Source of the DNA: Prevotella sp. | GTDB taxonomy: Bacteria > Bacteroidota > Bacteroidia > Bacteroidales > Bacteroidaceae | Assembly: GCA_017645905.1 (NCBI GenBank) | Contig: JAGCNO010000038.1 | Coordinates: 1 to 44,898 of the forward strand | Direction of reading: 5' to 3' | DNA length: 44,898 nt | In this document: positions 4,448 to 36,752 of the stretch, piece by piece | How the letters are laid out: each line of letters begins with the position of its first letter | Numbering within the stretch: position 1 is the stretch's first letter | Translations under genes and position numbers: made by a program | Notes under the pieces: model-generated | What the model was told of the DNA's origin: nothing | The model's input: the letters and a program-made list of their open reading frames with translations, nothing else | Database searches by the model: none

Positions 4448-5014
4448 TCAAATCCAAACATCCTCCACGCTACCTGGTATCGTCACAGTCTGGAACAAGC
4501 CATTCTCAAAAGCGTAGTTGCCGATTTTACGTACACCTTCGGGTATAATCAAATCTCTTATCTCTGTGTTCGCATCACTATAAAAGTGCTTTGCGTAATA
4601 AAGAGGATTGCTGTATTGGTTGACAAAGGAAATAGTACACCATGCTGCCAAGTTTGGCACAATCACTTTCTGCAAACCACCGCATTGATAAAAGGCACTG
4701 TCTCCAATATTCGTTATACTCTCTGGAATACTAACCGATATCAACTGGCTACATTTCGAAAAGGCTTTATAGCCAATGGAAGTCACACGATATGTTTCCC
4801 CTTCATATTTAACTGATTTTGGTATTGTGACATTTCCTGAATAGGATGTGCCGGAATCTGCAAATCCGCCATCATAAGTTACTTTAACGGAGAGGTCTTC
4901 TGTAGATGTGATGTTATAATAAATGCCGTCCACCTCAAAGTCGTGGGCCGACACACATAGGCTGGCGAAGCATAGCAGCATCGGCAACATGAGCTTTACG
5001 TTATGGTGTTTCAT
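4448..5014 (-). CDS. Short BspA-like leucine-rich-repeat surface protein
   Basis: 188 residues from MKHHNVKLM: a signal peptide ending near CVSA, a short N-terminal module (HDFEVDGIYYNI) and about three LRR_5 units of the type YRVTSIGYKAFSKCSQL / SVSIPESITNIGDSAFYQC / EGVRKIGNYAFENGL. Proteins of this type bind host or bacterial surfaces. Most are much longer with many repeats. This one stops in the middle of a repeat (VTIPGSVEDVWI), directly against the next gene, and is probably a 3'-truncated member. The frame is open upstream to 5122, but those codons lack signal-peptide character, so the start at 5014 is chosen. Confidence 0.75.
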   Translation of the reverse strand: MKHHNVKLMLPMLLCFASLCVSAHDFEVDGIYYNITSTEDLSVKVTYDGGFADSGTSYSGNVTIPKSVKYEGETYRVTSIGYKAFSKCSQLISVSIPESITNIGDSAFYQCGGLQKVIVPNLAAWCTISFVNQYSNPLYYAKHFYSDANTEIRDLIIPEGVRKIGNYAFENGLFQTVTIPGSVEDVWI

Positions 5015-5136
5015 TATCGTTTTGGTTTTAGTAATTAAAATGGGAGTTACCTGCGAGCTTTTTAACTTTATTAACGGGCATTCTCTTGGATTTGTCTTAG
5101 AAATCGCAGTCGGCGTGAACAATCTACTTCAGTTCT

Positions 5137-5400
5137 TTAAATTGTTTCCCACTGTTTGCGGGGCATGATAACGGAACTGATGACGACCCCTGACTGTAGT
5201 TCAATTTCGAAGAGCTTCCGCGCAATGAAATGCTCCCTTTCCGGAAGGACTCTATCTTCTGGAACGAGAATGAGCAGATCGATGTCGCTGTCCTGACGGG
5301 CATCGCCGCGAGCTTCTGAACCGTAGAGGATGGTTTGGGACTCGGGCATGAATGTCCGAGCCTGCTCTCTGATGAGGTTCACAATTTCAGTTCGTTTCAT
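5137..5400 (-). CDS. MNT-type minimal nucleotidyltransferase, orphan
   Basis: An 87-residue nucleotidyltransferase domain with the active-site pattern GSEARGDARQDSDIDLLIL (GS-x-x-RG ... D-x-D), as in MntA-type proteins that AMPylate a HEPN toxin partner. No HEPN gene is next to it. The protein stops at PRKQWETI, where many relatives continue for 15-20 residues, so the C-terminus looks shortened. A clear promoter lies upstream. It could be a solitary antitoxin remnant or a standalone enzyme. Confidence 0.75.
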   Translation of the reverse strand: MKRTEIVNLIREQARTFMPESQTILYGSEARGDARQDSDIDLLILVPEDRVLPEREHFIARKLFEIELQSGVVISSVIMPRKQWETI

Positions 5401-33246: not shown

Positions 33247-34653
33247 ATGAAAGCCATTCTTCTGTTGCTCTTCCTGACGTTTGGCTCGTCTTGTTTCGCC
33301 AAGGTGAAATACCCTGGCGACCGATACTTCATTTATCGTTACACGCTTCGCGACAAGGCGGCCACTACTCATTCCCTTGAGCGTCCCCACAGGTTTCTCT
33401 CTCGTCGGAGCATTGAGCGGCGTGAACGTCAGAACCTGAAGCTCGACTCTACCGACCTCCCCGTCTGCCACCGTTACGTCAGGCAATTTGAGGTGTTCGG
33501 AGCCGAAGTTTTAGGAACGAGCCGTTGGCATAATACGGTGCTCGTACGTTCGCGCGATTCGTTGCTCTTAGAGCGTCTGGCCAAGTTGCCGACGGTGAGC
33601 AAGAGCCGATGTGTGTTCATTGCTCCTGATAGCATTGACAAGCCTTCAGAAGTGCGCCCAAGGGTTCACGAGGCGTTCAACAAGTGGGATTCGGTGAAGA
33701 ACGACCCGTTAGGCATGTCTCGTCCTCAGATAGAGATGCTTAGTGGCGACCGGCTTCACGAGGCAGGCTTTCGTGGGCAGGGCATGATGATTGCCATTCT
33801 CGACGGAGGTTTTCAGAACTACGAACGTATTCCAGCCTTCCAAGAGGCTCGCATAGAAGGCGTTAAGGACTTCGTGCCTCCCCCTTTGAACGCCAAGCTC
33901 CCGTTGAGTCCTATCCAGCAGATTGACCACGGTACGAAGGTGTTCTCCGCCCTTGCTGCTCAGGCACCCGAGGTCATCATGGGAACGGCTACGGAAGCCG
34001 CCTACTGGCTCCTGCGTTGTGAAGACCCGTTGACCGAGCAACCCGTTGAGGAAGACTTCTGGACGATGGCCGCCGAAATGGCCGACTCGGCGGGTGTGGA
34101 CATTATCAACTCGTCGTTAGGGTATTACAAGTACGACAACGACCTCTGTGTCTATCGTCTCCAAGACCTCGACGGAAAGACGTCCTTCGTTTCCCAGACG
34201 GCCTCAATGCTTGCCCGCAAGGGTATCGTGCTTTGCAACTCGGCGGGTAATAGCGGCATGGGTCAATGGAAGAAGATTGGCGTTCCTGCTGATGCCCCTG
34301 ACATTCTCACCGTGGGAGCCATCAACAAGGAGCGGCGTATCGCCACGTTCAGTAGTGTAGGCCCTGCGCAAGACGGCCGTGTGAAGCCCGACGTGGTGGC
34401 ACAAGGTGCACCTGCCGCCCTCATTTCCGGACGAGGAACGTTGATGCACGACATGGGCACTTCGTTCTCCACGCCTATCGTGTGCGGCCTTGTAGCTTGT
34501 CTCTGGCAAGCCCACCGCAACCTGACGGCGCTTGAAATCATCGACCTCGTGCGCCGATGCTCCGACCAGTACGACGAACCCACCAACATCTTCGGCTATG
34601 GAATTCCAGACTTCTGGAGAGCGCATGAAGAAGAGATAAAAACCACGAATTGA
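33247..34653 (+). CDS. Secreted S8 subtilisin-like serine protease
   Basis: 468 residues with a signal peptide (MKAILLLLFLTFGSSCFA) and an N-terminal pro-region carrying the FLSRRSIERRERQ segment seen in Bacteroidota S8 proteases. Catalytic residues are Asp186 (IAILDGGF), His228 (IDHGTKV) and Ser406 (GTSFSTP), with the oxyanion Asn in NSAGNSG. There is no long C-terminal sorting domain, so it is probably periplasmic or simply secreted. Confidence 0.93.
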   Translation: MKAILLLLFLTFGSSCFAKVKYPGDRYFIYRYTLRDKAATTHSLERPHRFLSRRSIERRERQNLKLDSTDLPVCHRYVRQFEVFGAEVLGTSRWHNTVLVRSRDSLLLERLAKLPTVSKSRCVFIAPDSIDKPSEVRPRVHEAFNKWDSVKNDPLGMSRPQIEMLSGDRLHEAGFRGQGMMIAILDGGFQNYERIPAFQEARIEGVKDFVPPPLNAKLPLSPIQQIDHGTKVFSALAAQAPEVIMGTATEAAYWLLRCEDPLTEQPVEEDFWTMAAEMADSAGVDIINSSLGYYKYDNDLCVYRLQDLDGKTSFVSQTASMLARKGIVLCNSAGNSGMGQWKKIGVPADAPDILTVGAINKERRIATFSSVGPAQDGRVKPDVVAQGAPAALISGRGTLMHDMGTSFSTPIVCGLVACLWQAHRNLTALEIIDLVRRCSDQYDEPTNIFGYGIPDFWRAHEEEIKTTN

Positions 34654-34669
34654 ACGACGAAGATTTTTG

Positions 34670-34729
34670 ATGGTGCGCAGCCGCTCCCCTCCCTTGTAGG
34701 GGAGGGGTGAGGGGTGGGGTCAGTAACTA
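34670..34729. repeat. Left terminal inverted repeat of the DUF559 element
   Basis: Starts ATGGTGCGCAGCC, contains the palindrome CCCCTCCCTTGTAGGGGAGGGG read as a hairpin, and ends GTCAGTAACTA. It lies 16 nt after the S8 protease stop. Confidence 0.9.
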
Positions 34730-34755
34730 GATTCATTCTTATAGAAAAAGAACTT

Positions 34756-35196
34756 ATGCATTATCTAACGGCTAAAGCAAATGTTACAGAGCAAAAAGAG
34801 AATCGCAAGGCTCTGCGCAACAATATGACACCAGCCGAAGCTACACTTTGGCGAGCCCTGAAGGGTCGTGGGGTCGGTAGCATGAAATTTCGTCGTCAGC
34901 AAGGCATAGGTCCTTTCATTCTTGACTTCTACTGCCCTGAGCACCTACTTGGTATAGAACTTGATGGTGCCAGCCACGAATATAAGTATGAATACGACGA
35001 AAAACGAACTGAATATCTTCGTAGACAGGGCATTCGTATACTCCGCTTTAGTAATCAGCAGGTGTTTACGTCCATGCAAGGAGTCTTGGCTGAGATTGTG
35101 AGAGTAGCAAAGGAAGATACTGACCCCCAATTATTAGTTACTGACCCCACCCCTAACCCCTCCCCTACAAGGGAGGGGAGCGGCTGCGCTCCATGA
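34756..35196 (+). CDS. DUF559 domain (Vsr-like) endonuclease
   Basis: 146 residues from MHYLTAKANVTEQ. The DUF559 fold is clear: LRNNMTPAEATLWRALKGRG, MKFRRQQGIGPFILDFYCPE, LLGIELDGASHEYK, DEKRTEYLRRQGIRILRFSN. Asp57, Glu68, Asp70 and His74 match the PD-(D/E)xK / EDxHD-type catalytic cluster of Vsr and related homing endonucleases. From about residue 128 the frame runs into the right inverted repeat, giving a PTPNPSPTREG tail, and the stop codon straddles the element end. A frame-open GTG upstream (34714) lies within the left repeat; the ATG at 34756 fits the domain better. The role is unknown; it may process the flanking palindromes. Confidence 0.88.
   Translation: MHYLTAKANVTEQKENRKALRNNMTPAEATLWRALKGRGVGSMKFRRQQGIGPFILDFYCPEHLLGIELDGASHEYKYEYDEKRTEYLRRQGIRILRFSNQQVFTSMQGVLAEIVRVAKEDTDPQLLVTDPTPNPSPTREGSGCAP
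35135..35194. repeat. Right terminal inverted repeat of the DUF559 element
   Basis: Reverse complement of the left arm with two differences. It overlaps the last 20 codons of the DUF559 gene. Confidence 0.9.
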
Positions 35197-35203
35197 TAAG
35201 AAG

Positions 35204-35254
35204 ACTTTCATACTAATCACACTTTCATATTAATCAGACTTTCATACTAATCAG
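35204..35254. repeat. 17-bp tandem repeat upstream of xseA
   Basis: Three 17-bp units (35204, 35221, 35238), consensus ACTTTCATACTAATCAG, plus a partial fourth. It lies immediately right of the DUF559 element and 20 nt before the xseA ATG. Confidence 0.85.
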
Positions 35255-35273
35255 ACTTTTAATCGCATAGAAT

Positions 35274-36752
35274 ATGCAGGCATTGACCTTATATGAGCTT
35301 AACGCGCTGGTACGGCAGACCATCGAGCACACCCTCAATCGCGAGTACTGGGTGGAGGCGGAGCTTTCGGAGTGTCGTGAGAGCCGCGGCCATTGCTACA
35401 TGGAGCTGATTCAGTATGAAAGCCTTCCCCTCGGGGGGAGGAAGGTGGGGACTACCCCAATCGCTCGTGCCCAAGCCAAGTGCTGGCGTTCTCAATGGCT
35501 GATGCTCCAGCCGATGTTTGAGCGCACCACCGGCCAACAATTGCACGCTGGGATGAAGGTGAGGCTGAAGGTCTACGCTCAGTTTCATGAGGCTTACGGT
35601 TTCTCGTGGATAGTCACCGACATCGACCCCACGTACACCCTTGGCGACATGGCCCGGCGCCGTCAGGAAATCATCGCGAAGCTGAAGGCCGAGGGTGTCT
35701 TCGACATGCAGAAGTCGCTCGAGCTTCCGCTGTTATGCCTCAACATCGCCGTCATTTCGAGTGCTACCGCTGCCGGCTATGGCGATTTCGTCAACCAGCT
35801 GTCCGACTCTCCCTTCGCTTTCCGCACCCAGCTATTCCCCGCCACCATGCAGGGCGAGCAGGTGGAGCAGAGCATCATCGACGCGCTCAACAATATAAAT
35901 GACAAAATAGAAATGACAAATGACAAATATGATTACAATCAGGGACTTGCTGGTAATCATCTTTCTCATTTATCATCTATTAATTCTCCTTTCGATTGTG
36001 TGGTCATCATCCGAGGCGGAGGAGCCACCGCCGACCTCTCGGGCTTCGACACTCTATCCTTGGCCGAGAATGTGGCGCAGTTCCCTTTGCCTATCATCAC
36101 CGGCATAGGCCACGACCGCGACGAGAGCATCCTCGACATGGTGAGCCATACCCGCGTTAAGACTCCCACGGCTGCTGCTGCCTTCCTCATCGACCATGCT
36201 CAGACCGTCCTCGACGCCATTAACGACGCCCAAGAACGCATAGCCCGCCATACAAGACTGAAACTCACGGCCTACACGTCGCAGCTCTCAGCTCTCGCTG
36301 GCATACTCCCGCAGCTCTTCTCCAAGCTCAAGACTCGTCATGAAGCCCGGCTCGACGGTCTCACATCACGTCTCAGTGCCGCCATACGGCAGCGTATCAT
36401 TGGCGACCGCGGCAAACTGGATAACATTAAAAGCCGTCTGCCCATCGTCATCGACCGCCGCCTGCTCACAGAGAAGCATCGCCTGCAACTCCTTGAAGAG
36501 AAAGCCCGCAGCCTTGACCCCACATTGCTCTTGCAGCGCGGCTATAGTATCACAATGAAAGACGGAAAAGCAGTAAAAGACGCCAGCACCCTAAAGCCCG
36601 GCGACACCTTAGAGACCCGACTGGCCAAGGGCAGCGTGACGTCGACCGTTGATTTTGCCTCACCGGCGTCGTCCCCAAAAGACACTCAGAAGAATTCAAG
36701 CACAAACTCAACTTTCGCAAGTAATGAAGTATCGCGCAGCAAAGCCCCGTAG
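35274..36752 (+). CDS. xseA: Exodeoxyribonuclease VII large subunit
   Basis: 492 residues, the catalytic subunit of exonuclease VII acting on single-stranded DNA. It has an N-terminal OB-fold (YWVEAELSECRESRGHCYMEL), then the catalytic domain (VISSATAAGYGDF, LFPATMQGEQ, DCVVIIRGGGATADL, ITGIGHDRDESILD, VKTPTAAAAF), a long helical region and the C-terminal RGYSITMKDGK domain. It is longer than usual because of two inserts: about 48-61 (YESLPLGGRKVGTT, palindrome-derived) and about 206-236 (AT-rich, MTNDKYDYNQGLAG). Its stop codon is provided by a CCGTAGG palindrome. The core motifs are intact. Confidence 0.95.
   Translation: MQALTLYELNALVRQTIEHTLNREYWVEAELSECRESRGHCYMELIQYESLPLGGRKVGTTPIARAQAKCWRSQWLMLQPMFERTTGQQLHAGMKVRLKVYAQFHEAYGFSWIVTDIDPTYTLGDMARRRQEIIAKLKAEGVFDMQKSLELPLLCLNIAVISSATAAGYGDFVNQLSDSPFAFRTQLFPATMQGEQVEQSIIDALNNINDKIEMTNDKYDYNQGLAGNHLSHLSSINSPFDCVVIIRGGGATADLSGFDTLSLAENVAQFPLPIITGIGHDRDESILDMVSHTRVKTPTAAAAFLIDHAQTVLDAINDAQERIARHTRLKLTAYTSQLSALAGILPQLFSKLKTRHEARLDGLTSRLSAAIRQRIIGDRGKLDNIKSRLPIVIDRRLLTEKHRLQLLEEKARSLDPTLLLQRGYSITMKDGKAVKDASTLKPGDTLETRLAKGSVTSTVDFASPASSPKDTQKNSSTNSTFASNEVSRSKAP
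35421..35458. repeat. Palindromic G/C-rich insert in xseA
   Basis: CCTTCCCCTC, loop, GGAGGAAGG hairpin followed by TGGGGACT. It has the same plan (pyrimidine arm, purine arm, G-rich tail) as the DUF559 terminal repeats and encodes a loop in the OB-fold. Confidence 0.6.
35892..35988. repeat. AT-rich hairpin insert in xseA
   Basis: About 97 bp of much lower GC than its surroundings, with repeated ATGACAAA units and the perfect arms ATGATTAC (35929-35936) and GTAATCAT (35953-35960). It is in frame between conserved motifs. Confidence 0.7.

Follow-up and report, generated by a model that had tools for sequence, protein, structure and literature searches.

Organization of the unit and its protein

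The DNA analysed here, referred to as the window (44,898 nt), is contig C71 of a 3.4 Mb genome that consists of 181 contigs and is 87.5% complete. Between an S8 peptidase gene and xseA it contains a 525 bp unit made up of two inverted arms and the single gene between them (Table 1). By direct reading the arms (34670–34729 and 35135–35194) differ at two of 60 positions and enclose one DUF559 gene with intact catalytic residues, exactly as described in an earlier note on this DNA (58 of 60 positions identical); the pair extends to 65 nt with 94% identity, 405 nt apart. Both arms carry the hairpin CTCCCCTCCC-TTGT-AGGGGAGGGG, which is followed by a G-rich strand directed towards the DUF559 gene. 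A search with the 24-mer hairpin allowing up to three mismatches returned only the two arms within the window and nothing in shuffled sequence, and single-stranded DNA folding of the 60 nt arms outperformed that of shuffled sequences (z = −3.3 and −2.7). The sole open reading frame between the arms runs forward and encodes 160 residues from a GTG, with an ATG at 34756. Most of the protein's C-terminal tail, TDPTPNPSPTREGSGCAP, is translated right arm; the note had described PSPTREG-type tails of DUF559 proteins as translated palindromes, and the tail agrees with this. A short tandem repeat with a period of 17 bp is located immediately outside the right arm (35192–35259).

Table 1. Features of the unit and its neighbours in the window
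Feature	Position	Strand	Evidence
Left TM/BoxC-type arm: hairpin and inward-pointing G-rich third strand	34665..34729	+	Sequence, arm alignment, blastn, folding
Left-arm hairpin, C/T-rich stem	34684..34707	+	Motif search, folding
Left-arm G-rich tail, candidate third strand of an intrastrand triplex	34708..34721	+	Sequence; analogy with TM_ECO (PMC4666352, accessible part)
DUF559 ORF, 160 residues; DUF559 domain 34789–35106; tail from right arm	34714..35196	+	Translation, Pfam, alignments
Right TM/BoxC-type arm, inverted	35135..35199	-	Sequence, arm alignment, blastn, folding
Right-arm hairpin	35157..35180	-	Motif search, folding
Left neighbour: S8 peptidase gene, beside xseA in most fetched relatives	33247..34653	+	ORFs, relatives
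Right neighbour: xseA (exonuclease VII large subunit)	35274..36752	+	ORFs, relatives

The window protein matched DUF559 (PF04480) with 108.4 bits (gathering cut-off 20.6 bits), and residues D57, E68, D70 and H74 did not vary in two alignments, one of 14 and the other of 40 homologues. Besides DUF559, the Pfam search of the ORF between the arms gave a sub-cut-off match to REase_MTES_1575 and no Y1_Tnp; against the NCBIfam model vsr (cut-off 97.85 bits) the window protein was not listed at E ≤ 1 and YcjD reached 16.1 bits. A profile built from 14 DUF559 proteins retrieved PDB entry 3hrl (E = 1.5e-42), itself the structure of a DUF559 protein, and the homing endonuclease I-Bth0305I (PDB entry 3r3p; E = 6e-6). 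The fold predicted by AlphaFold2 (mean pLDDT 79) likewise ranked 3hrl and then I-Bth0305I at the top, with Vsr at ranks 13 and 18. Among the PADLOC models the best, although weak, match of the L001 protein was 'homing endonuclease'; the E. coli DUF559 protein had zero PADLOC matches at E ≤ 1 and the window protein only weak ones. The family is described by Pfam as still of unknown function. As stated in the accessible parts of the respective papers, YcjD was placed among known or predicted PD-(D/E)XK members in 2005 (PMC1189080), the Caulobacter DUF559 protein VsrA is the reported cause of an SOS response seen without a methyltransferase (PMC12907096), and transposase and DUF559 segments were among the intragenomic recombination hotspots of a Legionella evolution experiment (PMC12308824).

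The palindromes and their association with DUF559 genes

A C/T-rich hairpin, which folds in silico, followed by a G-rich third-strand stretch is the plan of the BoxC/PIT/TM intrastrand-triplex repeats, and the window arms share it; a triplex would form here by analogy with TM_ECO, for which one has been reported in vitro (PMC4666352, accessible part). The earlier note had proposed an undescribed REP-like mobile system; the palindromes as such are already described, their plan being that of the repeats in Holder et al. (2015; PMC4666352, accessible part). According to the same part of that article, BoxC/PIT/TM repeats have been known from E. coli since the 1990s and are associated with unstable loci, TM loci vary more between strains than controls do, inverted TM pairs occur in E. 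coli too, and activities giving genetic mobility were never found near TM. A word search of its accessible text returned none of 'endonuclease', 'ycjD' and 'DUF559', and no link of DUF559 or ycjD to BoxC/PIT/TM or to another palindrome was found in the literature searched (subscription journals and preprints lying mostly outside it).

The arm is a multi-copy sequence, as the note had predicted: blastn in its own genome listed 55 matches at E ≤ 10, among which the top 31 have E values of about 1e-9 or less, and many copies are plus/minus doublets of about 125 bp across. At the 15 arm places that were read with their flanks (the window's included) mini-elements were found that consist of an arm, a short spacer and an inverted arm, in most of which the hairpin is outermost and the G-rich strand innermost; the window unit follows this plan with the gene replacing the spacer. 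Some arm copies are solitary, and some copies (L018 and L032) have the appearance of lying in coding sequence and are candidates for such a location.

Inverted flanks of DUF559 genes were scored by the best local alignment of 350 bp upstream with the reverse complement of 350 bp downstream, a score above 30 being counted as a pass. The genus sample comprised the four DUF559 genes of the window's own genome and the 30 best-scoring fetched matches, from which one contig-end locus was dropped; 28 of the remaining 33 loci passed, compared with 8/417 control intervals of the same loci. The cross-phylum sample was formed by the top 80 among 566 relatives retrieved with a YcjD-like query and is mostly from Proteobacteria (in the old sense), with few records from Chloroflexi, Elusimicrobia, Nitrospira, Kapabacteria and Gastranaerophilales. 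Out of its 79 testable loci, 66 passed, one of which (L160) was an N-run artefact and was removed, leaving 65/78 against 7/301 neighbouring genes (Fisher p of about 2e-51). For the Bacteroidota, 30 loci were collected with the Pfam model and 25 were testable; 15 of these passed, several of them barely, and ten stayed under the threshold (16/319 control intervals passed). When a C/T-rich and a G/A-rich run were additionally required in both arms, TM-like flanks were found at 25/33 genus loci versus 5/417 controls, 58/78 cross-phylum loci versus 0/298 and 13/25 Bacteroidota loci versus 9/319. The excess of flanking inverted palindromes at other DUF559 genes that the note had anticipated is therefore very large in all three samples, and the packaging of the gene between such palindromes extends over several phyla.

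All four DUF559 genes found in the window's own genome lie between GC-rich inverted palindromes, the hairpin sequences of which differ; those at L004 were recognized by eye, their alignment score of 19 being below the threshold. The sole Elusimicrobia locus failed the flank test and the Kapabacteria locus passed barely. Among records of the plasmid collection, 5/12 loci passed (Neisseria, Picosynechococcus, Sphingomonas, Deinococcus and Pseudanabaena), visual inspection found such palindromes on one side of other loci, and a Bacillus locus had no inverted flanks. At L140 (Rickettsiales) a 1460-residue open frame contains DUF559 amid a great many translated palindromes of the PHPNPLPKEGEG type. 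RAYT-like genes of the same genus passed the flank threshold at 2/19 loci (one truncated locus was dropped), and neither of the two repeats was TM-like, so that TM-like flanks were found at 0/19. A cognate pairing of arms with nucleases was considered, for which arm/protein co-variation was weak (cross-phylum ρ = 0.25, a value reached in 0/500 permutations; genus ρ = 0.15, 53/500), and a combination of one type A with one type B arm, as in E. coli, proved not to be a general rule (49 units).

The motif CCCCTCYC-N(2–14)-GRGAGGGG was counted in 150 genomes of the genus, the reversed-pattern control giving zero to two matches per genome. Genomes with a DUF559 match at E ≤ 1e-18 were taken as positive (79 genomes); the other 71 include eight with weaker DUF559 matches. 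Kinship being ignored, the median number of TM hairpins was 28 in the positive and 0 in the other genomes, and at least ten were present in 53/79 with and 10/71 without DUF559. Among genomes of at least 90% completeness the corresponding numbers were 27/37 and 1/33. No more than two copies of the searched hairpin occur in 15 of the 79 DUF559 genomes. RAYT-like HUH matches are present in 76/150 genus genomes (in the window's own genome the match, L035, is below the Pfam cut-off), and the partial rank correlation with TM number, again with kinship ignored, was 0.59 for DUF559 and 0.46 for RAYT-like genes. When all 150 genomes are stratified by one of the two genes, the effect of the other persists; among the 70 complete genomes this is so for DUF559 in both strata, while RAYT-like genes have a weak effect (p = 0.03 and 0.14 in rank tests). 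Within the DUF559-positive genomes at least ten TM hairpins were counted in 43/54 with and 10/25 without a RAYT-like match. Genomes G026 and G003 (99% complete) hold 100 and 80 TM hairpins and have DUF559, with no RAYT-like match at E ≤ 1e-8. TM number tracks the DUF559 gene; the proposal that DUF559 is the partner of the repeats needs correction in that RAYT-like genes, found in half of the genus, correlate too, although none of those analysed is TM-flanked.

Sites with and without the unit

The junction of the S8 peptidase gene and xseA was compared in 18 fetched relatives that have both genes (L245–L262). In 16 of them the unit is absent, and the alignment places the two genes within about 180 bp of one another, too little for a unit; no TM is present in the 13 of these 16 junctions that were read. 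A TM doublet is located at the junction in L253, and in the most similar relative (L249, 85%) the region is rearranged. At two more sites, which precede genes read as argG and argC, one pair of genomes has a unit and the other pair has no TM, the flanks being too diverged to fix the exact ends. Sites free of the unit, the existence of which had been predicted, are found in relatives.

A 613 bp stretch with the unit is 94.8% identical at unrelated loci in genomes G278 and G117, the S8–xseA regions of which are 85% identical; near-identical units thus reside at unrelated places, and the unit has been mobile on an evolutionary time scale. For the site in G278 (L243) the right flank alone was matched in G117, with no TM in the part inspected. 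The site in G117 (L244) could be followed into G278 (L263), where the outer sequence on both sides and the left arm are the same and a mini-element before the unit is shared, about 30 bp shorter in G278. Past the left arm, G278 continues with a 20 nt spacer and one right arm; in G117 the gene follows, then a right arm and, after about 100 bp, part of another arm. The right parts are not identical; at this one TM array the DUF559 gene is nevertheless present in one orthologous copy and absent from the other, which is the pattern of a homing gene. Homing of the gene into TM, its loss, and mobilization of TM by the nuclease would account for this array equally well, and calling DUF559 the autonomous partner of the palindromes, as the earlier note did, goes too far in this respect.

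A target-site duplication of fixed length, as expected of an insertion sequence or MITE, was not found. In 84 units the longest repeat shared by the flanks measured 5.26 nt on average, compared with 4.88 nt (standard deviation of the mean 0.11) after shuffling; repeats of at least 8 nt occurred at five units against 1.4 expected, a small excess with unstable length. With a wider span of flank searched, 4/80 units and 7/168 controls reached a score of 13. Single direct repeats were seen around the L244 array (14 bp), at E. coli pstA–pstB (8 bp) and around L154; the unit at the last locus (about 5001–5309) is bounded by a near-perfect direct duplication of 74 bp, the strongest among 80 units tested. 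In five genomes (L211, L212, L215, L216 and L229) a DUF559 insertion occupies the same place at about 75–94% identity, so that some units have seemingly been inherited vertically for a long time.

The DUF559 gene of E. coli is ycjD, which lies between sapF and fabI; a 2 kb query across sapF–ycjD–fabI was at least 80% covered in 3362 of 5426 E. coli genomes. By eye, palindromes of BoxC plan follow ycjD on one side only. We take these palindromes to be BoxC, also called PIT and TM, partly from the TM sequence and partly from the description in PMC4666352. The place of ycjD in strains that lack it was considered as an empty site and discarded: other genes (MFS, outer-membrane efflux) occupy it in the two regions read (PMC12817139, accessible part). 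The cstA–ybdD site is not a clean insertion either. At pstA–pstB, 60 listed records taken at even rank steps comprised 23 full-length alleles, 36 without about 92 bp and one unrelated sequence; comparison of one full-length with two short alleles gave a precise 92 bp difference which holds one BoxC-like motif and has an 8 bp direct repeat at its ends and a third copy inside. This is an insertion or deletion of the repeat alone, and ycjD is not concerned. BoxC-like matches number between one and 27 per E. coli genome (median 16), some strains keeping one to three.

Units also reside in frame inside other genes. Frames of more than 250 residues make up 47 of the 150 genus DUF559 frames listed and 12/80 in the cross-phylum sample. 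In the genus, units were found in frame inside MazG, an ABC-F ATPase and an SF1 helicase (the latter two named by reading), and others are fused to the N-terminus of IspF, ArgB, Gmk, an RNA methyltransferase and further proteins (also named by reading); similar cases in other phyla were read as IspE (L157) and HsdS (L184), and units lie inside LeuRS, MetH and HsdR in the Bacteroidota. The interrupted MazG is the only MazG match in the window's own, 87.5% complete genome. Three genomes from three genera, all listed as 100% complete (G426, G450 and G500), have a single locus that exceeds the LeuRS cut-off; DUF559 interrupts all three at one place (profile positions 233 to 235–239), through which the LeuRS of the relative G481 continues unbroken. 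The LeuRS arms are degenerate and failed the flank test. LeuRS is an essential enzyme. No splicing (Hint) domain was listed by Pfam at E ≤ 1e-5 in eight fusion proteins. A palindrome in the MazG of relatives was considered as the empty site of the MazG unit and rejected: 18 readable interrupted relatives have a linker of 27 to 43 residues without TM, compared with 13 residues in most other relatives, and the MazG locus (L003) therefore has no clean empty site. Across the genus this linker, between HPHVY and NWEQ, ranges from 13 to 43 residues without TM (L066–L113).

Proposed mode of spread and relation to known systems

We give a probability of roughly 0.54 to the reading that the 525 bp unit is a copy of a selfish element present across phyla, in which a YcjD/DUF559 nuclease gene located between inverted BoxC/TM palindromes spreads by break-and-copy repair. 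The nuclease would most likely nick DNA at or beside TM arms that have folded into a hairpin or triplex, as could happen on the lagging strand. Repair would then copy between TM arms, by which the gene could enter gene-less TM doublets in a homing-like manner, and arms or doublets may now and then be seeded at new sites; the gene-less doublets would be the non-autonomous form. Repair-based copying is preferred to classical transposition because no constant target duplication was found and because this nuclease fold is not known to make a covalent DNA intermediate. We infer that the nuclease may cut TM DNA and drive the spread of TM, and likewise the direction of gain or loss and the route of repair.

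The main rival holds that TM is moved by something else and that DUF559 is a homing nuclease with TM doublets as its landing site. The TM array that contains the gene in G117 but not in G278, the fold shared with I-Bth0305I, the PADLOC match of the L001 protein and the weak co-variation of arm and protein all agree with this, but whole units are also present where relatives have no TM, and TM hairpins reach ten in just one of the 33 genomes of at least 90% completeness that lack DUF559; we consider homing alone doubtful. A movement of TM by RAYT-like HUH transposases, with DUF559 as cargo trapped between two TM copies, would account for the presence of RAYT-like matches in about half of the genus genomes and for the larger share of TM-rich genomes among DUF559-positive genomes that have them. 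It is less easily reconciled with the RAYT-like genes themselves, none of which is TM-flanked, or with G026 and G003, which are rich in TM with DUF559 and no RAYT-like match, and random cargo would not yield such an excess over neighbouring genes; this explanation appears unlikely.

That DUF559 is a host repair or defence nuclease resembling VsrA, at which palindromes gather as terminators or hotspots, seems very improbable, even though the Caulobacter report (PMC12907096, accessible part) and the presence of the sapF–ycjD–fabI place in most of the E. coli genomes speak for it. Neighbouring genes of the same loci are without such flanks (7/301 pass), units reside in frame inside unrelated genes and near-identically at unrelated loci, and PADLOC recognized the E. 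coli protein not at all at E ≤ 1 and the window protein weakly.

Among the closest known systems is REP/RAYT (REPtrons and REPINs; in part PMC3733652), in which one enzyme gene likewise lies between inverted palindromes and gene-less doublets of the same palindrome are likewise dispersed in the genome. The DUF559–BoxC architecture resembles a REPtron in both respects, and its classification depends on how architecture is weighed against enzyme: the RAYT enzyme is an HUH tyrosine transposase and the REP palindrome is GTAG- or CGTC-tagged, whereas the DUF559 unit has a PD-(D/E)XK/EDxHD nuclease and a C/T-rich BoxC/TM palindrome with a G-rich third strand. With BoxC/PIT/TM the plan of hairpin and G-rich third strand is the same, and the nuclease gene flanked by TM here stands against the lack of a mobility activity nearby as given in the accessible part of PMC4666352. 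The unit shares with I-Bth0305I (PDB entry 3r3p) the catalytic fold and, at one site, the presence or absence of the gene in the same array; unlike that enzyme it is seen with no intron or intein, and it would land in a family of palindromic repeats.

Rickettsia palindromic elements are palindromic elements that lie in frame in coding genes; DUF559 inserts are found well beyond Rickettsia and can in addition include a complete nuclease domain. Inteins with homing nucleases place a nuclease domain in frame inside conserved proteins, as does DUF559 in LeuRS and MetH; unlike inteins, the DUF559 fusions have no listed splicing domain and have palindromic DNA ends. DUF559–BoxC lacks the defining traits of RAYT, of insertion sequences with fixed duplications, of inteins and of Vsr. 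What is new is the link of BoxC/PIT/TM to DUF559, the palindromes themselves being known, and DUF559 is a strong candidate for the missing partner of the BoxC/TM repeats.

A wider proposal can be made only tentatively, at somewhat less than even odds: that DUF559–BoxC is an unrecognized form of selfish DNA across phyla, in which a Vsr-like nuclease acting on triplex-forming ends spreads both itself and BoxC/TM by break-and-copy repair and can reside, in frame and unspliced, inside essential enzymes such as the sole LeuRS of a genome, and that the BoxC/PIT/TM repeats of E. coli, Neisseria, cyanobacteria and Bacteroidota are its non-autonomous offspring. With a definite candidate enzyme, for which there are a solved structure (3hrl) and a member in E. 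coli K-12 (ycjD), the question can be tested at once. If true, it would give DUF559 a biological role and would add, beside introns and inteins, a further way for a nuclease gene to reside within conserved genes.
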